From Methanosaeta sp. PtaU1.Bin112 (GTDB lineage: Archaea; Halobacteriota; Methanosarcinia; Methanotrichales; Methanotrichaceae): a stretch of 34,233 nt of DNA. Made by a program: the position numbers and the translations under genes. The DNA is taken from assembly GCA_002067705.1 (NCBI GenBank), contig MVRL01000163.1, positions 1-34,233 of the forward strand. The letters run 5' to 3'. Positions 11,825 to 28,493 of the stretch are shown piece by piece (position 1 is the first letter of the stretch; each line of letters begins with the position of its first letter). The notes below the pieces were generated by a model, which saw only the letters and a program-made list of their open reading frames with translations, searched no databases and was not told where the DNA came from.

Positions 11825-14053
11825 TTGAGCGCAATACTAGGGGAGTCGCTGCTCTTTCCCCAAAGAAACGGGCCGCAGATCAGGCTAAAGGTCTTCGGCG
11901 ATGAGTTTTACAGCTACCAGGAAAACGACGAAGGCTACTCGGCGATTTATGATGCTGATTTGGGTCTGTACGCCTATGCTCGTCTGCTGGGCGGAATGCT
12001 GATCTCAACCGGCGTTCCCCTGAGCGAGCTTGCTCCGGCCGGTGTAAAGAGACATCTCAGGGAATCGCAAGAAACAATAGCCGCCAAATTCGAGCAGAGG
12101 TTTGCCAGAAATTCCGCCAGCCGGGATGGAGCCGCTCGCGTTCTTGGCAGAAGCATGGGCCTGCTGGAAGGACGGAAAGTAAATCAGGGAAAGATACTGG
12201 GTCTGACTATTCTCGTCCAATTCTCAGATGTCAAGACATCCATAAATCCAGCGGATGTATCCGATATGCTCAATACGCCTGGTTATAATCGCTACGGAAA
12301 TTTTTGTTCGGTTAGAGACTATTTCCTCAAGATGTCCTCCGGAAAGCTGGACTACTCCAATGTGGTAATTGGCCCCATAACCCTAAGCCACGAGAAGCAG
12401 TATTACGTAGAGCATCCGCTGGTCGAGGAGACGCTGCGGGCGGCGGCGAAGAGCGGCATAGACCTGCAGCAGTTCGATAGCAAGAGAGAGGGCTATATCG
12501 ATGCCATAAACATTCTCTATGCCGGAAAATCGCTATACCAGGGAGATTACATCTGGCCGCACAACGGAATTATCAACATCATGCTGGGCAACATGAGGGC
12601 GTACTTCTATATGCTGACTGGCCTGGGAGACGACAGGACGGAGCTGTCCATAGGCACATTCTGCCACGAGAACTCCCATATGCTCTGCCGCCTGCCCGAT
12701 CTTTACGATTATGGCAAACGCGACGGCGACTTCCAAGGCAGCGCCGGACTTGGCAGCTATTGCCTGATGAGCTACGGAAACCATCTAGATGATGGAAAGA
12801 CGCCGGCACCGATATGCGCATACCTGAGGAACTTAGCCGGATGGTGCAGTAATATCGTGAACCTGAATGAGGCTGGAGAGTATCAGGCCAATCATGGAGA
12901 CTATGATACCGTATTGATCTACCGAACAGACAACGAGAATGAGTATTTCATTGTGGAGAACCGCACTGCTCTCGATCTGGATGAGCATCTCCCCTCCAGC
13001 GGCCTGGCAGTCTACCACTGCGATATCTTCGGCTCGAATGAGTGGCAAGGCGGAACGCCGTATCACCATTACCAGTGCGGACTGCTCCAGGCGGACGGCC
13101 ATCTGGACCTGGAGAAGAACAGAAATGAAGGCGACTCATCAGATCTCTTTGGCAGAATCGATGGCCTTGCCCTGTCTCATGACACCCTGCCCTCCTCTTG
13201 CCAGTGGGACCTCTCCGAATCGAAGCTGATCATATCCAACATCAGCGAACCTGGCCAGGTAATCAGCTTCCGAACGGGTCCGGTCAAATCCACCAGAGCG
13301 GCCCGGGGTGAAGCGGTCTCCGCCGCTCTGATCAATGATAACGACCCGCAGGGCGTCTCCAGCGTCATCACGCTCTCAGAGAAAGGAAAGATCAGTGCCC
13401 TACGAGTCTCTCTGGATATCACCCATACCTACATAGGAGATCTGAGGGTAGAACTCATAGCTCCATCAGGCGAGAGAGCTGTTCTGCATGATCGCAAGGG
13501 TGGAGGCAATGACAACCTGATCACGACCTTTGATAGCGAGAGCAAGCAGGAGCTGAAAGCCTTCCTGGGCCTGCCCTCCCGAGGAGACTGGACGCTATGG
13601 GTTGCCGATCTGGCCAAGATCGACACGGGAAAGCTGAATCGATGGTCCATTGAGCTGGACCTGGAAGCCTCTAGCGGCTCAGCAAGCTATGATGCCGCGC
13701 CCAATCTGGAGATACCCGATGGCGATCCGACAGGAATCAGCCATGCCATACTGGTAGAAAGGGAAGGCATGGTCCAGGAGATAAAGGTGAGCGTTGACAT
13801 CAGCCATAACTATGTGAGCGACCTGAGAGTGGAGCTATTCTCCCCCGGCGGAAAGAGAGCGGTGCTTCACAATGCTACAGGCAGCGGCAAACCGGATATC
13901 GTAAGGACGTTTGAGTCTAAGGATTCCCCCGATCTGGCTGGCTTCAAGGGCCAGCTCCTGATGGGCAACTGGATCATGAGGGTGACTGACCTGGAACAAA
14001 GAGATGTGGGAAGGCTGAATAAATGGGCAATGGAGCTCTCATTCCTGGAGTAG
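11825..14053 (+). CDS. M6-family (immune inhibitor A-like) metalloprotease with two C-terminal P-domains
   Basis: A zinc endopeptidase-type protein of 742 residues. Residues 1-85 form the N-terminal domain also found alone upstream. The catalytic domain starts near KILGLTILVQFSDV and carries H281-E-N-S-H285 followed by MLCRLPDLYDYG. HExxH supplies the catalytic Glu and two zinc ligands. The PDLYD segment is the M6 hallmark, here one residue further on than in the common HEFGHxLGLPDLYD form. Two proprotein-convertase-type P-domains follow at about residues 490-615 and 622-742; each has SxxLxVSLDITHTYIGDLRVEL-like strands and ends with a GDWTLWVxD-like strand. Translation starts at TTG, with a good GAGGTAGG site. 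No signal peptide or membrane anchor is visible, which is odd for this family. Confidence 0.88.
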   Translation: MSAILGESLLFPQRNGPQIRLKVFGDEFYSYQENDEGYSAIYDADLGLYAYARLLGGMLISTGVPLSELAPAGVKRHLRESQETIAAKFEQRFARNSASRDGAARVLGRSMGLLEGRKVNQGKILGLTILVQFSDVKTSINPADVSDMLNTPGYNRYGNFCSVRDYFLKMSSGKLDYSNVVIGPITLSHEKQYYVEHPLVEETLRAAAKSGIDLQQFDSKREGYIDAINILYAGKSLYQGDYIWPHNGIINIMLGNMRAYFYMLTGLGDDRTELSIGTFCHENSHMLCRLPDLYDYGKRDGDFQGSAGLGSYCLMSYGNHLDDGKTPAPICAYLRNLAGWCSNIVNLNEAGEYQANHGDYDTVLIYRTDNENEYFIVENRTALDLDEHLPSSGLAVYHCDIFGSNEWQGGTPYHHYQCGLLQADGHLDLEKNRNEGDSSDLFGRIDGLALSHDTLPSSCQWDLSESKLIISNISEPGQVISFRTGPVKSTRAARGEAVSAALINDNDPQGVSSVITLSEKGKISALRVSLDITHTYIGDLRVELIAPSGERAVLHDRKGGGNDNLITTFDSESKQELKAFLGLPSRGDWTLWVADLAKIDTGKLNRWSIELDLEASSGSASYDAAPNLEIPDGDPTGISHAILVEREGMVQEIKVSVDISHNYVSDLRVELFSPGGKRAVLHNATGSGKPDIVRTFESKDSPDLAGFKGQLLMGNWIMRVTDLEQRDVGRLNKWAMELSFLE

Positions 14054-14804: not shown

Positions 14805-16586
14805 TCAGGCGATGACTGTTCTGTTTTGTCCTGACCTCACTTTTTCAATCTCCTCTCTCAGTTCAGCGCTCATTTTGGCACCATCGAGCCTGCATCCTGC
14901 AATCATTGGGATTTCTATGAGATCATACTTCAATCCTACGAGATTGGCTCCACTCAGATCGACGTTCTGCAGCGCAGTCATGCTCAGGACTGCGTTCCTC
15001 AGGTCTGCTCCGGATAGGTTGACATCGCCCAGGAAGCAGGTATCGAATCTGGCATTCCTCAGGTCAGCGCCCCGCAGATCGACCTCGTTGAGAATCATCC
15101 AACTGAAGCTTGCCGACCTCAGCACTGCTCTTTGCATAACGGTTCCCCTTAAGTTCATGGACTGCATGTCGCATCCGGACAGGTCTGCTCCGGACAGGTC
15201 AGCCTCATCAAGATCCACCTTGATGATCTGAATTCCTGAAAGATCTGCCTCAGACATATTGGTGTTGCTGAGATCCGCGTTGTCTAATTTTGTGCCTCTG
15301 AGGCTGGACCCCTGCAATCTGGCCCTTGGAAGATATGCCCTGGTAAAGTCCGATTCGCTGAGGTCGCAGTGACTGAGGTTAGCTCCAAATAGCTCCGCTC
15401 TGGAGAACTGGCAACGCTTGAGTGTGCTTTCTGCCAGGTTTGCCCAATTGAGTCTCGATCCTACAAGGTTAGCTCCGCTAAGCTCAGTCTTTCTCAGAAC
15501 CGCAAGGCTGAGATCTGCGCTAAGGAGCCTTGCTCCCTGCAGACAGGCACCTGTTAAATTTGACCCGCTGAGCAAGGCACCGGTAAGATCAGCATGCTCC
15601 AGATTGGAGTAGGAAAGATCCGCATCCTCCAGATGCGCTCTGGCCAGATTTGAGCCGGTCAGTCTGGCTTCGGAGAGTCTGACGTTATGCATCAAGGCAT
15701 TTTCCAGATTAGTCCCTGTTAGATTCGTCCTGCAGAGATCGCCGCCCGCCAGAATGGAAGAGGTAAGGATCGATCCGAATAGGTCCGACTGGCTCAGGTT
15801 TGCTCCGGTCAGGTTGGCAAAACTTAATCTCGATTTGACCATCCGTGAGCTGGAGAGATCTGCCTCGGAACAGCGCGACTCAGATAAATCTGCTCCGCTG
15901 AGATCTGCATGGGATATGGTGGCATTGATCAAGCTCGCTCCCACCAGGCTGGCTCCGGTCATATTGGCGCCGATCAGCAGGGAATTGCGCAAGGTGGAAC
16001 GATCCATGAGCGCCTTTTTAAAGCTGGCTTGACTCAGGTTTGTGTCGCTCATTTTTACGCCCCCAATGCTGGCTCTATCCAGCTTAATGCGAATCATGGT
16101 TGAACTGTCTGCAAAAGACTGATCCATAAAGCAGTTAGAGAGGTCTGCATCGTTCAGATTTGACCTTGTTAAATAGCATCCCGCCAGGAATGCGCCGGTT
16201 AGGTTAGCTTGGGTAAGATTTGAGGCAAACATATTACAGACGGGCATATTGGCGCCCCTGAGGTCGGCCTCGGAGAGATCGGATCCATGAAGGTCAGCGC
16301 CCACCATAATTGCTCCGCTGAGGTTGGCCTTTGCGAAATTGGCATCAAAGAGGCTGGATTGGTTTAAATAGGATCTACTGAGGTTGCTATCGCGGAGATC
16401 TGATCCGTGCAAATCGGAATGATTCAGGTGGGCTGCCGACAGATCCTGGCCGCTCAAATTCCTATCGAGGGGGATAAAATGATCTTTGATTTCGAGGGGA
16501 TCATCTGCTATGGCGCAAGAAATAATGGCGAGAAGCGCAAATGCCAAACACAACCCAAAAACCGGTCGCTTCACGAAATAATTCAT
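14805..16586 (-). CDS. secreted pentapeptide-repeat protein
   Basis: The 593-residue protein has a signal peptide (hydrophobic core PVFGLCLAFALLAIISCAIA, cleavage near residue 27). About 530 residues of A(D/N)LSx pentapeptides follow, roughly 100 repeats, predicted to form a right-handed quadrilateral beta-helix outside the membrane. By my count about eighteen N-x-S/T sequons occur in it. The helix is collinear with that of the 872-residue protein upstream in the operon: shared landmarks include INATI-ADLSGAD-SESRC, RAHLED-DLS and SELFGANLS-CDL. Both end in a YDxI, LDGAK, LRSG-type tail. It has no ribosome site, but a TATA box about 30 bases upstream suggests an extra, nearly leaderless transcript. 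No function is assigned. Confidence 0.9.
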   Translation of the reverse strand: MNYFVKRPVFGLCLAFALLAIISCAIADDPLEIKDHFIPLDRNLSGQDLSAAHLNHSDLHGSDLRDSNLSRSYLNQSSLFDANFAKANLSGAIMVGADLHGSDLSEADLRGANMPVCNMFASNLTQANLTGAFLAGCYLTRSNLNDADLSNCFMDQSFADSSTMIRIKLDRASIGGVKMSDTNLSQASFKKALMDRSTLRNSLLIGANMTGASLVGASLINATISHADLSGADLSESRCSEADLSSSRMVKSRLSFANLTGANLSQSDLFGSILTSSILAGGDLCRTNLTGTNLENALMHNVRLSEARLTGSNLARAHLEDADLSYSNLEHADLTGALLSGSNLTGACLQGARLLSADLSLAVLRKTELSGANLVGSRLNWANLAESTLKRCQFSRAELFGANLSHCDLSESDFTRAYLPRARLQGSSLRGTKLDNADLSNTNMSEADLSGIQIIKVDLDEADLSGADLSGCDMQSMNLRGTVMQRAVLRSASFSWMILNEVDLRGADLRNARFDTCFLGDVNLSGADLRNAVLSMTALQNVDLSGANLVGLKYDLIEIPMIAGCRLDGAKMSAELREEIEKVRSGQNRTVIA

Positions 16587-16610
16587 GAAATAATATCTGC
16601 ATTACTACTA

Positions 16611-16621
16611 TTAATTTTTAA
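16611..16621 (-). promoter_or_regulatory. TATA box of the secreted pentapeptide-repeat gene
   Basis: TTAAAAATTAA on the minus strand is centred about 30 bases before the ATG at 16586, in the 93-base gap after the BMP gene. Its position and the absence of a ribosome site fit a nearly leaderless mRNA made inside the operon. Confidence 0.45.
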
Positions 16622-16679
16622 TCTGAGAAGATCCATGCCAAATGGACAATGAAAAAACCAGCAGTTAAAAAAGGAGTGG

Positions 16680-17753
16680 CTATGATTTGGGCAGATCGCC
16701 CACAACATTGGGTTCGAGATAATACATCTTATTCAGCTCTTTATCATCCATGCCCGGGAATATTTCCAGTTTTTTTTGCAGAATCTCCTCCTGTTTCTTG
16801 CCTACAAAAGATCTGACATCGTCGGGAACCATTTTGCCAAAAGGTGCCAGCATCACTCCACCCTCCGCCAGTCCGTACCCCCATTCTTGGCCGGGTTGAG
16901 AATTCCAGGTTCCGTTATGCACGGATTCTGCAATATCGGTCATAATGGGTCCCATGTCCCAGGTCGCGCCAGTCAGGCATACACGAGGAGAGAACCTGCC
17001 GGTTTCTGAGCCGGAGGATATGAAGTAAGTGCCCATCTCATCAGCGATCTGGCCAGTAGTATCGGAATTGGATGCATGGGTTATGATATCGCACCCCTTA
17101 TGTATAAGTGATAGGGCCACAGCCCGTTCTTTTCCCGGATCATACCAGTCTCCTATCCACTCCACATAAACCCGGGCATTGGGATTGGAAGATGCGACTC
17201 CCTTGGCAAATGCATTAAGGTAATTTATCACCAGGGATGTGGGAAGGGCTGCGGCAATAGCGATCTTATCTGTCTTGGTCATATTGCCTGCCACTATTCC
17301 TGCAAGATACATAGCCTCATACATTCTTTCGTAATAAAATCCTGCGTTAGCAGCCAGTTTTTCTGTCCCCCCGCCCCACATGAAGACGACATCCGGATAC
17401 TCAGGAGCCACTTCCTTGATTGCATTCATGAAGTCGTAGCTGTGACAGAATATCAGCTTGGAGCCATTTTCGGCACATTCTCTTAATATTCGGGGTGCAT
17501 TCGGGGCGTCAGCATTCTCTATCTCGGAAAGTTTCACATAAGGAAGTTCCTGGGCCATTTTGATTGCGCCCGCATGGCCTTCGTAAGCCCAGCCATAGGC
17601 ACCAATAGGGCCAGTTACGATCAGAGTCACATTTAGCTCGGATTTTTCCGAGGAGTTATCAACTGCCGCACTGCAATCTCCTGCAAAGCCAGCTAAGATA
17701 ATAGCACAAAGAATCATATTCCGCAATGTTGATGCATATCTGTTATTTTGCAT
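16680..17753 (-). CDS. BMP/PnrA-family periplasmic binding protein, orphan
   Basis: The protein resembles basic membrane protein/PnrA substrate-binding lipoproteins, which capture nucleosides for ABC import in bacteria. A signal segment (about residues 10-28) precedes the mature part of about 330 residues. Family parts are VTGPIGAYGWAYEGHAGA near the start, LIFCHSYDFMNAI, YERMYEAMYLAGIVAGNMT, and CDIITHASNSDTTGQIADE. ATG 17753 is chosen because GGGGTGAT lies 4 bases upstream. GTG 17762 and ATG 17759 are also in frame. No permease or ATPase gene is nearby. Its neighbours on both sides are pentapeptide-repeat proteins, so a sensing or scavenging role tied to them is more likely than ordinary import, as inference. 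Confidence 0.87.
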   Translation of the reverse strand: MQNNRYASTLRNMILCAIILAGFAGDCSAAVDNSSEKSELNVTLIVTGPIGAYGWAYEGHAGAIKMAQELPYVKLSEIENADAPNAPRILRECAENGSKLIFCHSYDFMNAIKEVAPEYPDVVFMWGGGTEKLAANAGFYYERMYEAMYLAGIVAGNMTKTDKIAIAAALPTSLVINYLNAFAKGVASSNPNARVYVEWIGDWYDPGKERAVALSLIHKGCDIITHASNSDTTGQIADEMGTYFISSGSETGRFSPRVCLTGATWDMGPIMTDIAESVHNGTWNSQPGQEWGYGLAEGGVMLAPFGKMVPDDVRSFVGKKQEEILQKKLEIFPGMDDKELNKMYYLEPNVVGDLPKS

Positions 17754-17780
17754 TATCATCACCCCTTGAGCAAAGTCCGG

Positions 17781-20399
17781 TCAGGTCGTATTTCCTGACC
17801 GCAATTTTTCCAAATCCATCTCCAAATCGGAGCTGATCTTGGCCCCATCCAGTTTCGACGCCGCAAAAAAACCAAGCGCTATGGAATCATACTTGATTCT
17901 CTGCAGATTTGCATCCGTAAAATCAGCGTTTTCGAAGGCAGATGTATCAAATACAGCATCACTCAGATCCGCGCCAGCAAAGTTGGTGTTATTCATATAG
18001 GTCTGCGCAAAACGGACCTTCCGGAGGTCGGCGCCGCTGAAATCTGCATCTAAAAAGTTCAGCAAAATTATGTTGGATCCCCTCAAGTTCGCCTTGCTCC
18101 AAACAGTATCCTTCAGGGTCATGCCATACAGGTACGATTCTGGGAGGTCCGCACCGGATAAGTCGGCCTCGTTTAGAAATACATTCAATATTCTCGCCCT
18201 GCTCATTTGGACTTTTCTCAGATTTGCGCCGGTAAGGTCGGCATAATCCAAAGATATATCCTTCAGAGTGCAACCGGATAGATTTGTTCTCACCAAATAT
18301 GCTCGGATAAAGTCCGAACCGGTCAAGTCGCAATTGCTGAGGTTGGCTCCAAAGAGTTCTGATCTGGTGAACTGACAATTTGTGAGGCTGCTGTCTGCCA
18401 GATCTGCCCAGTTCATTTTCGCACCAATCATGTTGGTGCGGATCAAAAATGCACCATTCATGATGGCCAGGCTAAGATCCGCACCCATAAGCCGGGCACC
18501 ATTAAGATTGGCGCTTGTCAGATTGCACCCGCTCAACAAGGCGCCGGTAAGATCGGCGTTTTCGAGATCGGAGCAGGATAGGTCGGAATCTTCCAGATGC
18601 GCTCTTGGTAGGCTGGCACCGGACAGATCGGCTCCAACAAGCCTGACTCGATGCATAAAGGCATTTTCGAGGTTCGAACCGCCGAGATTTGTTTTTGTGA
18701 AATCGGAACCATCCAGACTCGAAAATCCAAGATACGATCCCGAGAGGTTCGCCATGCTGAGGTTCGTATCGGTCAGGTTGGCAAAAGTCAAACGGGAATT
18801 GATTAACCGAGAGCCGACGAACTCTGCACCGTGACAACGGCTCTCCGAGATATCTGCCCCAGAGAGGTCTGCATTAGTGATGGTGGCATTGATAAGGTTT
18901 GACCCGACCAGGCTTGCTCCAGTCAGATTAGCCCCAGACAATAGGGAATTCTGAAAGGTTGCACGGTTCATGAATGCTTTTACAAAACTTGCATCAGTCA
19001 AATTTGCATAGCCAATTTTCACAGCCAACAGGCTGGCGCCATTAAGATTGGAACCAACCAGGGTTGAATTATCCGCCATAGTCTGATCCATATAGGAATC
19101 GGATAGATCCGCCCCAGTCAGATTTGAGGCTACCATGTAGCTGATAGGCAAATAGGCACTTCTGAGATCGGAATGGGAGAGATCAGAGCCGTGAAGATCA
19201 ACGCCCGGCATGAATGCGCCGCTGAGATTGGCTCCGATAAGCAAGGCATTGGAGATGACGGCCTGAACCAAAAAGGACCTGCTCAGGTTCGTTTTGCAGA
19301 GATTTGATCCTTGCAACTCGGAATGGTTCAAGTCCCTCCCGGACAAATCCAAACCGCTAAGGTTCCAATCGCTGAAATCGGCACGAGAGTGGAATGGCTG
19401 GTTGATTATCATGCTATCTGCAGGCAAGCTGGCGATGGGAATGCCAAAACGATTCAATTCATGGTAATCAAACTCGTAACGATTTAAGTTCTCTCTGATC
19501 ACAGGAATATTTTCTGCCGGCTCTCCCCCTAAGATGCGAAGAGCAAGCTTCGCCGCCTCGCTTCCCTGAGACGAGCCGGTGAGCACCTTTCCTCCAACAA
19601 CACCATATCCCATAAAAAAATCCCATAAAGCATAAATTGGAACAGAGCTTGCTTCATGGATGAGGCTTGTTGTATCCTCATAAGTCAATATCTTTCCATT
19701 CCGGTCTCGATTGAAGGTCATCTCCAAGATGAGGCTGTCTTCAGGCAGGGAAGAGACACGCTGCGCGAGCTCCTCTGCTGTGATGTTGTCAAGGTACTCA
19801 AAGGACACCTTGCCCACTAATTCCGGAATTGCTGCATCCATAATCTTTCGATTAGCCTGGCCGGTTGATGTATTATCATTTACAATGGCAATAAGCTTTG
19901 TATGGGGATGCAATTTGAGCATCAATGAAATGGTATCATTGATATCGAATACCTCCATTACGCCCGTAAAATCGTGTTTTCCTCGAAGCATCTCATCTTT
20001 AAAGCTGATAACACCGCAGAAGACGACAGGCGTTCCCGGAAAAATCTCATCGCGGTTATTGAGCAAGAATTGGAAGGCGTCGGTATCGGTAGAAATGATC
20101 ACATCAAAGTGACGGTCTTTATACTTTTTGAGATAAAATGCCTTCAAGTCAGCCAGACGGGTTGCATTTGGATCGATCCTTTTTGTGTCCATGAACTCAA
20201 CATCGATAACAGCCGAAGGCATATAAATTGCAAATTGATGCTTGATCTCGGAGATGATGCTATCATCCCATTTCATCCCAAGATTATAGGAGGCAAGAAT
20301 TAGAATATGTTTAGAGGTCTTTTCTTCAGCCGCGAAAGAGCCTGTAACCAGAAAAGCTATGAGAAGAAATATGAAAACGGATTTTATTAAAGCTTGCAT
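17781..20399 (-). CDS. ABC-substrate-binding-type sensor domain fused to a pentapeptide-repeat beta-helix
   Basis: The 872-residue protein begins with a signal peptide (to about residue 24). Residues 28-345 form a periplasmic-binding fold of the ABC_sub_bind kind (KHILILASYNLGMKWDD, DVIISTDTDAFQFLL, GTPVVFCGV, ALWDFFMGYGVVGGKVLTGS). They end with FDYHELNRFGI and the LPADSMIINQP linker that in other proteins leads into PAS or kinase domains. Here about 500 residues of pentapeptide repeats follow instead. No membrane anchor is seen after the signal peptide. AAGGAG lies 8 bases before the ATG and overlaps the stop codon of the preceding 71-residue gene. The helix is paralogous to that of the 593-residue protein. 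The role is unknown; ligand-dependent surface assembly is a guess. Confidence 0.9.
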   Translation of the reverse strand: MQALIKSVFIFLLIAFLVTGSFAAEEKTSKHILILASYNLGMKWDDSIISEIKHQFAIYMPSAVIDVEFMDTKRIDPNATRLADLKAFYLKKYKDRHFDVIISTDTDAFQFLLNNRDEIFPGTPVVFCGVISFKDEMLRGKHDFTGVMEVFDINDTISLMLKLHPHTKLIAIVNDNTSTGQANRKIMDAAIPELVGKVSFEYLDNITAEELAQRVSSLPEDSLILEMTFNRDRNGKILTYEDTTSLIHEASSVPIYALWDFFMGYGVVGGKVLTGSSQGSEAAKLALRILGGEPAENIPVIRENLNRYEFDYHELNRFGIPIASLPADSMIINQPFHSRADFSDWNLSGLDLSGRDLNHSELQGSNLCKTNLSRSFLVQAVISNALLIGANLSGAFMPGVDLHGSDLSHSDLRSAYLPISYMVASNLTGADLSDSYMDQTMADNSTLVGSNLNGASLLAVKIGYANLTDASFVKAFMNRATFQNSLLSGANLTGASLVGSNLINATITNADLSGADISESRCHGAEFVGSRLINSRLTFANLTDTNLSMANLSGSYLGFSSLDGSDFTKTNLGGSNLENAFMHRVRLVGADLSGASLPRAHLEDSDLSCSDLENADLTGALLSGCNLTSANLNGARLMGADLSLAIMNGAFLIRTNMIGAKMNWADLADSSLTNCQFTRSELFGANLSNCDLTGSDFIRAYLVRTNLSGCTLKDISLDYADLTGANLRKVQMSRARILNVFLNEADLSGADLPESYLYGMTLKDTVWSKANLRGSNIILLNFLDADFSGADLRKVRFAQTYMNNTNFAGADLSDAVFDTSAFENADFTDANLQRIKYDSIALGFFAASKLDGAKISSDLEMDLEKLRSGNTT

Positions 20400-20411
20400 A
20401 ATTTTATCTCC

Positions 20412-20627
20412 TTACGTATCTATATTTTTTGACCGGTTCATTGCAGAGACGCTACGGTTAAGATCCTTCACGCCCATTCGCGGATCCTCGTTCTGAGTGA
20501 TCAACTTCATGAGTGACGAGTTATCAGATGCTGTAGACGACAGAGCTGTAATGGATTGGGAGGCAATAATGATAAAGACCGTAATATACAAATTAATATT
20601 ATCATAAAAATGTGTCTTTTTTATCAT
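20412..20627 (-). CDS. short secreted leader protein at the head of the pentapeptide operon
   Basis: The 71-residue product has a hydrophobic segment LYITVFIIIASQSITALSS (residues 13-31) like a signal peptide, followed by 40 polar residues. GGAG lies 7 bases before the ATG, and a TATA box sits at the right distance upstream. Its TAA stop overlaps the ribosome site of the sensor/pentapeptide gene, indicating translational coupling. No family is recognised. It may be a real small exported protein, or the surviving N-terminus of a broken gene. Confidence 0.55.
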   Translation of the reverse strand: MIKKTHFYDNINLYITVFIIIASQSITALSSTASDNSSLMKLITQNEDPRMGVKDLNRSVSAMNRSKNIDT

Positions 20628-20666
20628 TGATTCTCTCCAGGAAACTATCCAACATTATTGTATTCC

Positions 20667-20680
20667 ATATACATATTTAG
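20667..20680 (-). promoter_or_regulatory. TATA box of the pentapeptide/BMP operon
   Basis: On the minus strand CTAAATATGTATATG is centred about 48 bases before the ATG at 20627. It predicts a start near 20649 and a leader of about 22 bases that includes the GGAG site. Confidence 0.5.
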
Positions 20681-20702
20681 CCGTGTTGCTCCGGCACAAT
20701 TA

Positions 20703-20712
20703 GCTATTTATG
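20703..20712 (+). promoter_or_regulatory. TATA box of the DNA polymerase gene
   Basis: GCTATTTATG is centred about 27 bases before the ATG at 20735, which places the transcription start at the start codon. No ribosome site is visible, so the message is probably leaderless. Confidence 0.5.
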
Positions 20713-20734
20713 CAGAAATCGCCATTTATAAACG

Positions 20735-23425
20735 ATGATCTTCCAGATCCTGGATGCTAACTACACCTATGATTCCGATAGGAGTCCGCTGGTGCAGCTC
20801 TTCGGCAGCACGCCCGAAGGGAGAAGCGTTACCTGTCGAGTGGCAGGATTTCGTCCCTATTTTTATGCCGGCGTAGATGAAAAGCTATCGGAAAGCGCCC
20901 GGGAAGAACTTTTAGCCCAGGGCCTGGATGTAGAGGTGGTGGAGCGCTTCCTGCCCATCGGCTATCAGACCACTGCTCAGAAGATGCTCAAGATCACCAC
21001 CCATGACCCAAAAGAGGTGAGAAGCCTCAGGGAAAAGACAAAGGAGATTGCCGGCATCAAAGCGGTCTATGAGACTGATATTCTCTTCAAGAACAGGTTT
21101 CTAATTGACTGCTCTCTGGGTGGCATGAGCTGGGTGGATGCGCCCATACCGGAGTGGACCGCGGGAACGCCCGCAGCCGTCGCTTCCCCGGTTGCGGTCG
21201 TGCCATTTGGGGCTTTGCATCCGGTCTCGCAAGAGGCCAATGCACCTCTGCGTTTTATGAGCTTTGATATAGAATGCCTTCCCGATCAGGGGGAGATGCC
21301 CAAGGCGGAAAAGTCGCCCGTGATTCTCATCAGCATGGCCTTCGAGCCGGAATACCAGGGCAACAGGGATCTGGTGCTGGTTGGAAAGAATATCGACTGC
21401 CCCCGCTCAGATACCAGATCCTGTCAGGATGAGAGCGATCTCCTCGCATCGTTTGCCTCAATTGTCCGTGAGTACAATCCGGATATCCTGGCCGGATATA
21501 ACTCCAATGAGTTCGATTTTCCCTATCTTCAGGAGAGGTATAAACAGAACCGGTTGGAGGCTCGGATGGGCAGGGACGGCAGCTCCTGGTACATAAGAAA
21601 GATCGTTAGCAGAACGGACGTATCCATTACCGGTCGAGTGGTGGTGGACCTCTTGCCCATCATCCGCTCCTCCTACAGCCTAAAGCAATACACCCTCAGA
21701 AATGCCGCTGCTGAGCTTCTCAATATGGAGAAGTACGATGTGGACCCCAAGGAGATCGAGGCCCTCTGGGCAGAGGGGGGAGATGGTCTGCGGCGCTTTG
21801 TCAGCTACTCACGTAGGGATGCCGTTCTCGCCTTGCGAATGCTCCTCGACCTGAGGCTTATGGACAAGTACATCGCCCTATCCCGGGCCAGCGGATCTCT
21901 TCTCCAGGACATCGTCAATGGCGGCCAGTCCGGAATGGTGGAGAGCCTGCTCATGCGCCGCTTCCGGGAGCGTGGCCGGGTGGTGCCGCCCAAGCCGGAT
22001 GCGGATATCTCTGAAGAACGCTACGAGGAGAACGAGGGCCTGAAAGGCGGGGCGGTCCTGGTGCCGGAGAAAGGGCTGGTGGAAGATGTGGTCATCCTGG
22101 ACTACAAGTCGCTTTATCCTACTATTATGATGGCCCATAATCTCTGCTACACCACCGTGCTCACCCAGGCTTCTGAGTCCGCGAGCGCCTCGGCAAGGGA
22201 GGCAGCGGAAGAGATCATAACCGCCCCCTCGGGCGGCAGGTTCGTATCCCCTCAGGTCTCGCCGGGAATAATGCCTGCGGTCTTGCGAGAGCTGCTCGAT
22301 GAGAGGACTGCGACCAAGAGACTGATGAAGAAGGCGGGGGAGGAAGAGCGGCGCTTTTTGGATGCCAAGCAGTATGCCATGAAGATACTGCTCAACAGCT
22401 TTTACGGCTACTCCGGGTATGCCCGCGCCCGGCTCTACAGCCTGGCTCTGGCCAATGCCGTCACCTCATTTGGCAGAGAGAACATCCTTCGCACCAAGAA
22501 GATCATCGATGATATTGGATCGGCCTATGTGATCGGGGGAGAGGTAGTCTTCAAGGACGCCCTGCCTTTTGGAAAGGCGGCAGAGAAATGCTATGACCTC
22601 TCGGTGGTCTATGGGGACACGGACAGCGTCTTTGTGCGCCTGCTGCCAGCGGGGCGGGCCGCCGGTCCAATCTCCCTGCGGGATGCCGAGCTGATCGGCA
22701 GAAAGATCGCCGAGACCGTCACCGCATCTCTTCCCGAGCCGATGGAGCTGGTCTTTGAGGCCTTCGCCAGGCGGGGCATATTCCTGGCCAAGAAGCGTTA
22801 CGCCCTCTGGGTCTTTGAGCCGATAGGCGACGGCTGGAAGGACAGAATCAAGGTAAGAGGCATGGAGACGGTGCGGCGAGACTGGTGCGGCCTGACCTCC
22901 AAAACGCTCAAGACCTGCCTGGAGCTGGTTCTCAAAGAGGGCAAGGTGGAGGAGGCGGTAGAACACGTCCGATCCGTGGTGCTCAGGCTGCAGAATCAGG
23001 ATCTTTCCCTGGATCCCAACCTGCTGGAAGACCTGATTTTGACGCGCCGCTACACCAAGAGCCCAGGCTCCTACAAGAACAAACAGCCACACATTCAGCT
23101 TGTGGAGAAGATCAGAGAGCGAGGCGGCACCGTTCCCGGTGTTGGTGACAGGGTACCTTTTGTCATCGTCCAGGGAAAGAGGGGCAGGAAGAGCAGAGAG
23201 CTGTTTGTGAACCGTGCGGAGGACCCTTCTTATGTCCGGGAGAAGAATATGCCTCTGGACACGGAGTACTATGTGGAAAAGCAGATCCTCCCCCCAGTGC
23301 TTCGCATCTTCGAGAGCTTTGGGGTAACCAAAGAGCGGCTCTGCTCAAAGAGAGGGCAGAGCAGCCTGTTCAGCTTCAGCGAGGCTCCCAAAGAGCAGAA
23401 GCAGAAGTCGCTCTTTGATTTTTAG
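20735..23425 (+). CDS. polB: family B DNA-directed DNA polymerase
   Basis: A replicative-type polymerase with proofreading, 896 residues. The exonuclease domain has FMSFDIECLP (Asp178, Glu180), then NSNEFDFPYL and YSRRDAVLAL. Polymerase motif A is DYKSLYPTIM (Asp456), motif B is KILLNSFYGYSGYA, and motif C is YGDTDSVF (residues 626-633, Asp628 and Asp630). All catalytic acids are present and no intein interrupts the motifs. The tail holds two PCNA-binding-like sequences: QSSLFSF (875-881) and QKSLFDF (890-896, the very end). The gene is alone on its strand. Its last 4 bases overlap the end of the convergent kinase gene. Confidence 0.96.
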   Translation: MIFQILDANYTYDSDRSPLVQLFGSTPEGRSVTCRVAGFRPYFYAGVDEKLSESAREELLAQGLDVEVVERFLPIGYQTTAQKMLKITTHDPKEVRSLREKTKEIAGIKAVYETDILFKNRFLIDCSLGGMSWVDAPIPEWTAGTPAAVASPVAVVPFGALHPVSQEANAPLRFMSFDIECLPDQGEMPKAEKSPVILISMAFEPEYQGNRDLVLVGKNIDCPRSDTRSCQDESDLLASFASIVREYNPDILAGYNSNEFDFPYLQERYKQNRLEARMGRDGSSWYIRKIVSRTDVSITGRVVVDLLPIIRSSYSLKQYTLRNAAAELLNMEKYDVDPKEIEALWAEGGDGLRRFVSYSRRDAVLALRMLLDLRLMDKYIALSRASGSLLQDIVNGGQSGMVESLLMRRFRERGRVVPPKPDADISEERYEENEGLKGGAVLVPEKGLVEDVVILDYKSLYPTIMMAHNLCYTTVLTQASESASASAREAAEEIITAPSGGRFVSPQVSPGIMPAVLRELLDERTATKRLMKKAGEEERRFLDAKQYAMKILLNSFYGYSGYARARLYSLALANAVTSFGRENILRTKKIIDDIGSAYVIGGEVVFKDALPFGKAAEKCYDLSVVYGDTDSVFVRLLPAGRAAGPISLRDAELIGRKIAETVTASLPEPMELVFEAFARRGIFLAKKRYALWVFEPIGDGWKDRIKVRGMETVRRDWCGLTSKTLKTCLELVLKEGKVEEAVEHVRSVVLRLQNQDLSLDPNLLEDLILTRRYTKSPGSYKNKQPHIQLVEKIRERGGTVPGVGDRVPFVIVQGKRGRKSRELFVNRAEDPSYVREKNMPLDTEYYVEKQILPPVLRIFESFGVTKERLCSKRGQSSLFSFSEAPKEQKQKSLFDF

Positions 23426-24579
23426 GGTAGGGTGAAGCACACGGAGCAACCTTCGCGTTCAACCGAATCGATCCACATTCTTCCGCCATGAACCTCAATG
23501 ATTCTGCGAGAGAGAGAAAGTCCTGCGTGGGAATTTTCTGCCTCATTACCCCGGTAAAATAAACTGAATATATCTTTCTGGGCTTTAGGATCTATGCCTG
23601 TCCCGTTATCTCTTACAAAGAAGACGACCTCGTCCTCTTTTTCCAGAGATCCGATCTCGATCTTTAGCGGCCTGACATTGCTTTTATACCGGATGCAATT
23701 CTCAATCAGAGTCACAAGGACATCAACAATCCTAGCTCGATCCACATTCACCATCGGAAGATCACTGGCAACGGTGACGACTGCTTTCCCGGCCCTGATC
23801 TTGTCGGCCGTCAGACTCAAGGCTTCTTCTACAATCTCTCTATAGGATACCTCTTCTCTCCTGCTGGATAGCTTGCCAATGCTGGAGAGATCTAAAGCTC
23901 TGACCAACAGAGATTCCATTCTCTCAACCGCATCACCTATCAGACCCAGATCGATCTCAATTCTCTGCCTGCCGCCGGAAGCGATATCTTTCTTGAGATA
24001 GACTAAAAATCCTTTGATTGTAACCAGAGGCAGAATGAGATCATGAGAGATGGCATAAACCAGCTGTTCGATCTCGTCATACCTCTCCTTCAGCTCTACG
24101 GTTCTCTCTTGAACCTTCTTCTCCAGATTGTTCTGGGCAGAGATAAGAGCCTCTTCTGATTTTTTGCGCTCGATGGCATAGCTGATAGAACGGCGAAGCA
24201 GTCGGTCGTCAACCTCTCCTTTCACCAGGAAGTCGCCAGCTCCCTCCCTGACCGCCCTCACCGCCATTTCTATATCGCATAGGCCGGTCAGAATCAAGAT
24301 GGGAATTTTTGGCTTATTTTTATGAATATTAATAAATGTATCCAATCCAAAGCTATCGGGCAGATTCAAGTCCAGGAGCACGGCATCCACATCATTTGTG
24401 CTCAAGAATTGCAGCCCGGAAGAGAGACTGTTCGCCATTGCTAAATCAAACGATATGGGCGACGATTCCTTTTCTTTATAGCGCGAAGAATCTTTCAAAT
24501 ACTCTTTGATAATCTTTGCATCAATCTCATTATCTTCAATTAAAAGGACTTTAATTATATTCGCATTCACGCATCTCAT
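23422..24579 (-). CDS. response regulator/histidine kinase hybrid, receiver domain first
   Basis: The 385-residue cytoplasmic protein has an N-terminal receiver domain (about 8-130) with Glu15/Asp16, phospho-acceptor Asp70 in LLDLNLP, Thr98 and Lys120. A coiled-coil (about 138-172) leads to a HisKA-like segment AISHDLILPLVTIKGF with His179. The ATPase domain follows, with N-box LIENCIRYK (Asn294), DNGTGID (324-330) and HAGLSLSRRIIEVHGG. It lacks any membrane or sensor domain, so it must receive its signal by phosphotransfer to Asp70 from another kinase. ATG 24579 has no clear ribosome site. GTG 24570 follows GAGATGA and may be the true start. Confidence 0.9.
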   Translation of the reverse strand: MRCVNANIIKVLLIEDNEIDAKIIKEYLKDSSRYKEKESSPISFDLAMANSLSSGLQFLSTNDVDAVLLDLNLPDSFGLDTFINIHKNKPKIPILILTGLCDIEMAVRAVREGAGDFLVKGEVDDRLLRRSISYAIERKKSEEALISAQNNLEKKVQERTVELKERYDEIEQLVYAISHDLILPLVTIKGFLVYLKKDIASGGRQRIEIDLGLIGDAVERMESLLVRALDLSSIGKLSSRREEVSYREIVEEALSLTADKIRAGKAVVTVASDLPMVNVDRARIVDVLVTLIENCIRYKSNVRPLKIEIGSLEKEDEVVFFVRDNGTGIDPKAQKDIFSLFYRGNEAENSHAGLSLSRRIIEVHGGRMWIDSVEREGCSVCFTLP

Positions 24580-25658: not shown

Positions 25659-27074
25659 TCAGGCCTTCTCGACCTCTTCCATAACCCGCCTGTGAACCTC
25701 TCCGGCATCGGCTTTGCCGCGCGTCTTCTTCATCACCGCCCCCACGATGAAGTTCAGAGCCCTTTCGCTTCCCGCCCGGTAGTCGGCCACCGCGGCAGCG
25801 TTCTCGGTAACGGCTTCTCGCACCGCTTTTTGCACGACGCCGTCCTCTGCCTTGCCCAGGGACAGAGCTTTGATGATCTCTCTGGGATTGCGGCCCTTCT
25901 TATCCAGCAGAGCGCGGATGATCTGCACTGCTCCGTCCTCGGTGATGTTCTTGCCATCGAGCAGGGCGACGATCTCGATCATGTGCTCCTTCTCGAAGCT
26001 CTCGATCGTCAGATCCCGGTAATTCAGCTCGCCCTTGAGCACATCGGCAATCCAGACCGCGGCCAGTTTTGGCGAAGCCCGCCCGGCGACTGCCTCGTAG
26101 AAGTTGGCAACCTTGATCTCCGATGTGAGGGACTTGGCATGATCCTCAGTAAGGCCATACTGAGCCACGAACCGCTCCCTCTTCGCGTCCGGCAGCTCAG
26201 GCAGGGTCGCACGGATCTCCGGCACCCAGGAGGCGATGCGCAGGACTGCCAGATCTGCCTCAGGGAAGTAGCGATAATCGTGCGCTCCCACCTTGCTTCT
26301 GATGGAGACGGTTATGTTTCTGATCTCATCGAAATGGCGCGTCTCCTGGACCACCTTGATGCTCCTTCTCTGCAGGTTCCTCTGCCTGGTGATCTCATAA
26401 GAGAGGGCCTTTTCCACGCCCTTGAATCCGGAGATGTTCTTGACCTCTGTTCTGTCGCCGCCCTTCAGGGAGATGTTGGCATCGACGCGCATAGATCCTT
26501 CCAGAGACCCGTCGAAGACATCCAGATACTCGAGGATGCTCTTGAGCTTGTCCAGGAACGCCCGTGCCTCCTTTGGAGATGTCAGATCCGGCTCGGTCAC
26601 CACCTCAAGCAGAGGCATTCCGCAACGGTTGTAGTCCACCATGGTGTACTTTGCTTTGTCGATGGTTCCGGCATGCACGAGGCGACCCGGGTCCTCCTCC
26701 ATATGCGCCCGGTTGATGCGGATGCTCCGCTCGATGCCGTCGTCACCCAAAATCCTGATGTGGCCGCTAGTGGCCAGAGGAAAGTCATACTGGCTGATCT
26801 GAAATCCCTTGGGCAGGTCGGGATAGTAGTAGTTCTTCCGGTAGAAGAACGTCTCCTCCTCGATCTGGCAATTCAAAGCCAGCCCCACCTTGATGCCGTA
26901 CTCCACAGCCTTACGGTTGATCACAGGCAGAGAGCCGGGCAGCCCCAGGCAGACCGGGCAGGTATGGCTGTTGGGCGGAGAGTTCTGGTAGGCGGTCGAG
27001 CAGCCGCAGAACATCTTGGATTGCAGGCGGTTGAGCTGCACATGAATCTCCAGGCCGATGATGACATCTTCCAT
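25659..27074 (-). CDS. gatB: Asp/Glu-tRNA amidotransferase subunit B (GatB)
   Basis: GatB phosphorylates the acyl group on misacylated tRNA and accepts ammonia from GatA, giving Asn-tRNA in archaea. The 471-residue protein begins VIIGLEIHVQL. Zinc ligands are in MFCGCSTAYQN and HTCPVCLGLPGSLP. The kinase core is marked by YYPDLPKGFQISQYD, RAHMEEDPGRLVH, DYNRCGMPLLEVVTEPD and SMRVDANISL. The C-terminal YqeY-like tail runs from about residue 330 to the end. It starts directly after the gatA stop codon. Confidence 0.97.
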   Translation of the reverse strand: MEDVIIGLEIHVQLNRLQSKMFCGCSTAYQNSPPNSHTCPVCLGLPGSLPVINRKAVEYGIKVGLALNCQIEEETFFYRKNYYYPDLPKGFQISQYDFPLATSGHIRILGDDGIERSIRINRAHMEEDPGRLVHAGTIDKAKYTMVDYNRCGMPLLEVVTEPDLTSPKEARAFLDKLKSILEYLDVFDGSLEGSMRVDANISLKGGDRTEVKNISGFKGVEKALSYEITRQRNLQRRSIKVVQETRHFDEIRNITVSIRSKVGAHDYRYFPEADLAVLRIASWVPEIRATLPELPDAKRERFVAQYGLTEDHAKSLTSEIKVANFYEAVAGRASPKLAAVWIADVLKGELNYRDLTIESFEKEHMIEIVALLDGKNITEDGAVQIIRALLDKKGRNPREIIKALSLGKAEDGVVQKAVREAVTENAAAVADYRAGSERALNFIVGAVMKKTRGKADAGEVHRRVMEEVEKA

Positions 27075-28493
27075 CTAGATCACCCCCGGAACGGCCTCAT
27101 GGAAGGGCGTTGCCTCCTCAAAGGCTGCCGCAGTGCGAAGCACTGCCGCCTCACCGAAGTGCGGCCCCATGAGCTGCAAGCCAATAGGCAGCCGTCCAGC
27201 GAAACCGCAGGGAACTGATACCGCCGGGACGCCTGCCAGATTGATGGGAACAGTGAAGACATCGGCCATGTAGAGAGAGAGCGGATCGTTGATGCGCTCT
27301 CCGATCTTGAAGGCAGGAATTGGCATGGTGGGGCTGGCCAGAATATCGACCTCCTTGAAAGCACGCAGGAAATCCTCTTTGATCAGAGTTCTCACCTGGA
27401 GGGCTTTGAGATAGTATCGCCCGTAATATCCGGCTGAGAGAGCATATGTCCCCAAGATTATGCGCCTCTTGACCTCAGTGCCGAAACCCTGAGCGCGAAT
27501 GGCTGAGAAGGTGGTATGCCAATCTTTGTCCTCGCCTTCCCGGAGGCCGTAGCGAAGTCCGTCGAACCTGGCCAGATTGGAGGATGCTTCGCTCATGGCT
27601 ATGACATAGTATGCAGCCAGAGCATATCGGGTGTGGGGCAGGCTGACCTCCTGCCAGCTGGCGCCCAGTGACTGCAGAGTGTCAATTGCCTTCCAGACCG
27701 CTTTCTCCACATCATTATTCACGCCCTCTCCGAAATACTCCTTGGGAATGCCGATCTTCAGGCCAGCCACTCCATTTTGCAGGCTGGACAGATAGCTGCA
27801 AGTCTGTCCCTGAGCAGATGTGGAATCCCGCTCGTCGTGCCCGGCTATTACCTCCATGAGCAAAGCGGTATCCTCAACCGTATGGGTGAGAGGGCCGATC
27901 TGCTCCAGGGAGTTGGCATAGGCCACCAGACCATAGCGCGAGACCAGACCATAGGTGGGCTTGAGTCCCACTATGCCGCAGAATGATGCAGGACAGCGAA
28001 CCGATCCGCCAGTATCCGAGCCCAGAGCGCAGGGGGCTTCACCGCCAGCGACCACCGCCGCGCTTCCTCCGCTGGAGCCGCCCGGAACGCGAGTATGGTC
28101 CCAGGGATTTTTCGTCGGGCCGAAGCAGCTCGTCTCGGTAGACGTGCCCATGGCAAACTCGTCCATGTTGGTCTTGCCCATGACGATAGCTCCCTCCGCC
28201 TTGAGTCGCTCAATAACATGGGCATCATAAGGCGGGATATAGCCGCGCAATATCCGAGAGCTACAGTTGGTCTCAATTCCCTTGGTTGATATGCACTCTT
28301 TTATGGCGATGGGCACTCCAGCCATAAGCCCCTGGCCAGGCTTTTTGTCGAACTGCTTTGCCTGCTCCAGAGCGCTCTCCTTTGCCAGAGTGGTGAAGGC
28401 ATTGAGCTGACTCATCTCGATCTTCTCAAAGAGCCGGCAGAGATATTCCTCGCATGATTCGGCTGCGAGCTTAGCCCTTATTTCTGAGAGCAT
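27075..28493 (-). CDS. gatA: Asp/Glu-tRNA amidotransferase subunit A (GatA)
   Basis: GatA is the glutaminase subunit, releasing ammonia for GatB. The 472-residue protein has the amidase signature GGSSGGSAAVVAGG (138-151) and GSDTGGSVRCPASFCG. The catalytic triad is Lys65 in IAIKECIS, Ser140 and nucleophile Ser164; these have the same spacings as in characterised GatA. It lies between gatC (2-base gap) and gatB with no intergenic space, forming one operon. Confidence 0.97.
   Translation of the reverse strand: MLSEIRAKLAAESCEEYLCRLFEKIEMSQLNAFTTLAKESALEQAKQFDKKPGQGLMAGVPIAIKECISTKGIETNCSSRILRGYIPPYDAHVIERLKAEGAIVMGKTNMDEFAMGTSTETSCFGPTKNPWDHTRVPGGSSGGSAAVVAGGEAPCALGSDTGGSVRCPASFCGIVGLKPTYGLVSRYGLVAYANSLEQIGPLTHTVEDTALLMEVIAGHDERDSTSAQGQTCSYLSSLQNGVAGLKIGIPKEYFGEGVNNDVEKAVWKAIDTLQSLGASWQEVSLPHTRYALAAYYVIAMSEASSNLARFDGLRYGLREGEDKDWHTTFSAIRAQGFGTEVKRRIILGTYALSAGYYGRYYLKALQVRTLIKEDFLRAFKEVDILASPTMPIPAFKIGERINDPLSLYMADVFTVPINLAGVPAVSVPCGFAGRLPIGLQLMGPHFGEAAVLRTAAAFEEATPFHEAVPGVI

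Follow-up and report, generated by a model that had tools for sequence, protein, structure and literature searches.

Our analyses point to an exported, rod-scaffolded module for ligand capture or sensing at the cell surface or sheath of Methanothrix, a reading to which we give a probability of about 45%. It is encoded by a four-gene operon in contig MVRL01000163.1 of Methanosaeta sp. PtaU1.Bin112, analysed over its 34,233 nucleotides (the window). In this scenario, two long pentapeptide solenoids (P872 and P593, about 25 coils each) would act as stiff scaffolds, one of which bears at its N-terminus a periplasmic-binding-type sensor of putative histidine-kinase origin. A BMP protein with an aromatic-clamp pocket would serve as a second, soluble ligand binder. 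DOMX, the usual partner of the rods but broken in the window copy, probably docks on them. In sister loci it forms a single protein with a transglutaminase-like enzyme bearing Cys, His and Asp, by which the rods may be processed or fixed. The ligand would be bound outside the cell rather than for ABC transport, so that a solute could be concentrated, or reported to a receptor encoded elsewhere. We infer the contact between rods, BMP and DOMX, as well as the sheath location, the ligand class and the signal output.

The four open reading frames are those described in an earlier note on this DNA, with BMP between the two rods (Table 1). All lie on the minus strand, from 20627 down to 14805, with intergenic gaps of 12, 18 and 93 bp, in a genome of 3.44 Mb that is estimated to be 99% complete. 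P872, BMP and P593 each have one N-terminal hydrophobic segment and none further on, so that by hydropathy all are expected to be exported. BMP and P872 lack a lipobox; the weak one of P593 (IISC) is absent from most of its orthologues. For BMP and the two rods, dN/dS lies at 0.17-0.40, which reflects purifying selection and indicates that these proteins are maintained. At 11825-14053 in the window, adjoining an amidotransferase gene, is an exported-protease-like open reading frame with an HExxH motif and two P-domains, which is kept beside the operon in three relatives (L037, L038 and L040). A 508-aa open frame at 25692-27218, antisense to a GatB-type gene, has no Pfam match and is probably a by-product of coding on the opposite strand.

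Table 1. Features of the operon, with positions in the window
Feature	Positions	Strand	Basis
Presumed operon promoter region, shared with divergent polB	20628..20734	-	Largely conserved in pairwise alignment with L038
Truncated DOMX gene, 71 aa	20412..20627	-	Alignment to the intact 103-aa gene in L038; family comparison
P872, 872 aa: signal peptide, sensor domain, pentapeptide solenoid, helical C-terminal cap	17781..20399	-	ORF, Pfam, AlphaFold2
P872 sensor domain, aa ~25-340, PF04392-like, ending LPADSMIINQP	19380..20327	-	Pfam; homology to kinase sensors
P872 pentapeptide solenoid, aa ~345-835, ~25 coils	17895..19367	-	Repeat phase, structure model, PDB folds
P872 most conserved surface patch, aa 661-705, NWADL...CQFTRSELFGANLS...SDFIRAYLVR	18285..18419	-	Conservation over 80 rods
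BMP-type (PnrA-like) soluble binding protein, 360 aa	16680..17762	-	PF02608, nearest structures, pocket mapping
P593, 593 aa: signal peptide and pentapeptide solenoid, no sensor	14805..16586	-	Pfam, alignment, tree
P593 counterpart of the conserved surface patch, aa 378-421	15324..15455	-	P593/P872 alignment and conservation scan

Residues 87-302 of P872 match the ABC_sub_bind profile (PF04392; E 3e-8, 33.7 bits against a cut-off of 25.9). Outside Methanotrichaceae, homologues of this sensor end in LPxxSxxxN and continue into a transmembrane segment (22 of 22 proteins), and 11 of 12 searched with Pfam have PAS, GAF, HisKA or HATPase domains. In all eight sensor proteins sampled from Methanotrichaceae, LPxxSxxIN(Q/R)P leads straight into the rod. 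Thus, the rod occupies the place that the membrane helix and kinase hold in the relatives. PF04392-like histidine kinases (L182, L183 and L189) have homology over the full length of the sensor and the same LPxxSxxxN end, but carry a transmembrane helix and kinase at the junction where P872 has its pentapeptide rod. P872 has neither a kinase domain nor a hydrophobic segment after its signal peptide, and is not a sensor histidine kinase. Judged by its sequence, the P872 sensor is the sensor domain of a histidine kinase without the membrane and kinase half. Its predicted structure, from four sequences, is of low confidence, and no PDB sequence match was found for it.

Given that the sensor appears to derive from a kinase, signalling of the LuxP/LuxQ kind comes to mind, with loaded BMP and the sensor-rod engaging a separate membrane histidine kinase and the rod setting distance or geometry. 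In L044 a PAS hybrid histidine kinase is encoded 52 bp after BMP, in L035 another adjoins the sensor-rod, and stimulation of transmembrane receptors by binding proteins is known (PMC9602780). We nevertheless consider this arrangement unlikely, as the adjacent kinases are not conserved and a search of the window genome for a kinase with a homologous sensor, as a possible output, returned none. The kinase closest to the operon (window 23422-24579, minus strand) is a soluble receiver-plus-HATPase protein. It lies on the far side of polB, and the relatives read do not have it beside polB. Distant homologues of the sensor persist on true kinases in some Methanothrix (L135, L136 and L138), and the operon itself encodes no output component. 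The earlier observation that the genes come with no kinase, permease or ATPase is correct for the window operon, but as regards the kinase does not extend to L044 and L035.

The protein between the rods matches the PF02608 profile (E 2e-42, 145.6 bits against a cut-off of 24.1, residues 44-332) and, together with the PF04392 sensor, it bears out the proposal that the operon encodes two distinct proteins of ligand-binding type. Its nearest solved structures are AtzT (6pi5) and a Brucella basic membrane lipoprotein (3s99). AtzT holds guanine between Tyr45 and Trp194, with Ser97, Glu165, Asn218 and Asn220 (PMC6834077). BMP retains the aromatic clamp, with Trp58 and Trp206 at the positions of Tyr45 and Trp194, and Ser108 and Asn232 correspond to Ser97 and Asn220. 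However, Leu177 and Ala230 replace Glu165 and Asn218, and a purine ligand is therefore not established. BMP also differs from AtzT in its lack of a permease partner and in the position of its gene between rod genes. Compared with orthologues that are 70-83% identical, BMP differs at 4-5 of the 5 specificity positions (hypergeometric p 0.001-0.004) while keeping the same clamp, and it matches its closest orthologue (86%) at all five. The comparison suggests a working pocket with a changed ligand. In the proposed module, the ligand would be a small, probably flat heterocyclic solute.

Most PF02608 proteins are components of ABC transporters, and BMP could be an ordinary ABC substrate-binding protein with its permease encoded elsewhere, in which case its position between the rods would be historical. 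AtzT is thought to serve uptake, and two related genomes of another genus (L048 and L049) have BMP without an adjacent rod. BMP stays next to rods in many other loci, however, including those of a second arrangement (see below), and its lack of a lipobox also speaks against such a role. A PF02653 search found no BMP-type permease in the window genome. The only PF02653 pair sits in an operon of LivHM type, whose own binding proteins bear a lipobox-like LSGC, and a place for BMP in an ABC operon thus finds no support in this genome. As the genome, estimated to be 99% complete, yielded no matching permease, we regard ABC transport as very improbable. The window operon also has no permease or ATPase, the partners expected of a BMP/PnrA protein, and with no BMP-type permease found elsewhere in the genome either, we do not claim a BMP-type ABC transporter.

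The earlier note had proposed conservation of gene order as a check, which a lack of any relative with the genes together would have failed, and the order is indeed kept in relatives. The sensor-rod (or its truncated end), BMP and the rod occur together in six Methanothrix species (L034, L038, L041, L033, L013 and L037), and the sensor-rod/BMP pair occurs at four loci in three more (L039, L040, L035 and L036, the sensor of the last being beyond profile recognition). This amounts to ten loci in nine further species of the genus, several of which adjoin polB or amidotransferase, as in the window. Three genes separate the sensor-rod from BMP in L038; two of these are MscS-like, and the 355-aa protein encoded between the two has no Pfam match. 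Relatives of BMP with at least 57% identity were found in 11 of 25 congeners. The second arrangement, in L044-L047, comprises BMP, a Peripla_BP_6 protein (PF13458), DOMX-TGX and rods, so that a third type of binding protein accompanies rods and BMP there. The BMP genes without rods, the frequent occurrence of rods without BMP, and the lack of an intact DOMX in the operon count against the module. The proposed device is not simply the four genes of the window. Given that the gene set is kept in related species, it looks like a real, uncharacterised ligand-binding system of the cell surface.

Membership of PF00805 is defined by tandem A(N/D)LXX repeats that build a four-sided solenoid. Both rods score far over the Pfam cut-off (Pentapeptide profile, E 1.6e-108 for P593 and 2.9e-89 for P872), and the repeat phase, solenoid model and PDB fold matches agree with this. 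The central repeat position is 98% hydrophobic in the P872 solenoid, which AlphaFold2 modelled with pLDDT mostly of 85-95 and whose PDB fold matches are HetL, designed beta1 solenoids, Qnr and MfpA.

P593 and the P872 rod are 52% identical, and the main internal difference between them is one block of 20 residues, equivalent to one solenoid coil. This likeness exceeds generic repeat similarity, since a second sensor-rod in the same genome is only 43% identical to P593 and a tree of 80 rods recovers the P593 type (SH-like support 0.987) and the P872 type (0.947) as sister clades (joint support 1.0). Insertions in these proteins keep phase: in comparisons of 17 rods, 129 of 136 pairwise internal gaps are multiples of 5 and 76 are multiples of 20, although these comparisons are not independent of one another. 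On these grounds we rejected chance or generic similarity of repeats, and the paralogy of the two rods proposed earlier is confirmed. Both clades hold several species and one member of another genus, which argues that the duplication is old. The motifs that had been cited for it need some correction. P593 reads RAELFGANLS and VRSG where P872 has RSELFGANLS and LRSG. Moreover, the QFxRxELF...SDFxRAY patch, the most conserved surface patch by column across the 80 rods, and the LDGAK cap are family-wide, and so do not by themselves prove duplication. As to whether the sensor was lost or gained, its loss in the P593 line is the more parsimonious history on the rod tree.

The peptide of 71 residues at the head of the operon, described earlier as an exported peptide, is the truncated product of a gene of about 104 codons. 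The first gene in relatives encodes an exported protein of 103-104 aa (DOMX), from which 122 bp are deleted in the window copy as assembled; alignment to L038 places the junction at ~20460/20461, with the frame shifting after MGVKDL. The DOMX consensus is DLAFFLxTHxFDAxPxxxxVxVxxDGxxYxLxPNGxxPGL. Neither Pfam nor NCBIfam has a match to the family, and fold comparison with the PDB gave nothing significant; an AlphaFold2 model from two sequences predicts two helices followed by three strands (pLDDT 76). In an even sample of the phylum, all 11 Methanotrichaceae genomes had DOMX and none of the 284 others did; a closer sample includes a few Methanotrichaceae members, partly incomplete, without it. 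A same-strand DOMX gene lies within 1.5 kb of 15 of the 21 sensor-rods with intact flanks and of 24 of the 35 sensor-less rods, the first of these figures being the least biased because the loci were partly chosen by DOMX. With about six DOMX genes per genome, we estimate chance adjacency at a few percent at most. DOMX is the most regular neighbour of Methanotrichaceae rods. Besides the broken copy, the window genome carries five DOMX genes, of which three adjoin rods; in several orphan groups DOMX stands by itself. Stand-alone copies (L153:9015-9317, L119 and L120) adjoin exported proteins of about 800 aa, with a right-handed beta-helix in L119, which suggests that DOMX may partner other solenoids too.

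A related exported protein of about 225 aa, DOMX-TGX, joins an N-terminal DOMX to a C-terminal Cys-His-Asp domain (L002:8445-9119, L123, L125, L143-L151 and others). A rod adjoins 18 of the 20 DOMX-TGX genes with intact flanks. The C-terminal domain lacks a Pfam match, and the family alignment retains Cys in 18, His in 19 and Asp in 20 of 20 sequences, Cys being replaced by Arg in two copies (L045:11114 and L150). Searches for a transglutaminase profile in Pfam (E<=10) and for any PDB sequence (E<=1) gave no match; we thus rejected TGX as a proven transglutaminase, the resemblance being one of motif. Rods, DOMX and the transglutaminase-like partner are a family-wide set, which BMP joined only in some Methanothrix.

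This family-wide set also bears on a structural role. Methanothrix cells inhabit tubular sheaths divided by plugs (PMC11576556), and the rods could be sheath, plug or envelope parts, with the binding-type domains as ligand-independent caps or adhesion modules. It fits that the rods are multicopy and exported, that their partners are lineage-specific and that DOMX-TGX, with its Cys-His-Asp domain, accompanies them. We hold this to be possible but doubtful, since it would leave unexplained the retained clamp of BMP, the fast change of its specificity residues and the presence of three binding-protein families beside rods; the sheath paper, moreover, does not mention pentapeptide proteins (PMC11576556).

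Every fold in the proposed ligand-binding module except DOMX belongs to known families. The rods share the right-handed quadrilateral solenoid of HetL, NP275/276, Qnr and MfpA (PF00805) by profile and predicted fold. The solved proteins have ~180-240 residues, whereas the rods are far longer, are exported, have their own C-terminal cap and, in one case, carry a sensor. Gyrase binding of the Qnr/MfpA type would not be expected of rods outside the cell. The nearest analogy may be the Pseudomonas ped cluster (PedD, PedA1, PedG and PedS2), in which a predicted extracellular pentapeptide protein is encoded near binding-type proteins and a histidine kinase (PMC12997753). That cluster is tied to PQQ alcohol oxidation, however, and no sensor-rod fusion or DOMX is reported for it. 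In the literature searched, outside which lie most subscription journals, we found no description of the sensor-to-rod junction, the BMP/rod unit or the DOMX partnership, and no link of a pentapeptide protein to Methanothrix or Methanosaeta.

Methanothrix is a major acetate-to-methane archaeon, and to our knowledge solute uptake and sensing by its sheathed filaments are poorly described. The module offers a concrete, testable unit: its sensor junction is defined, its BMP pocket can be screened for ligands, its rods share a conserved surface, and its DOMX family was found in our samples only in Methanotrichaceae. It points, in addition, to a way in which a kinase sensor may evolve, a scaffold rod taking the place of the membrane half, of which we found no description in the literature searched. 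We suggest, more speculatively, that Methanotrichaceae may have evolved a lineage-specific extracellular machine for sensing or capture in which a kinase sensor was moved from the membrane onto exported beta-solenoid rods and combined with soluble binding proteins, DOMX adaptors and a rod-modifying Cys-His-Asp enzyme. If true, such a machine would allow ligands to be handled at a remove from the membrane, such as across the sheath.
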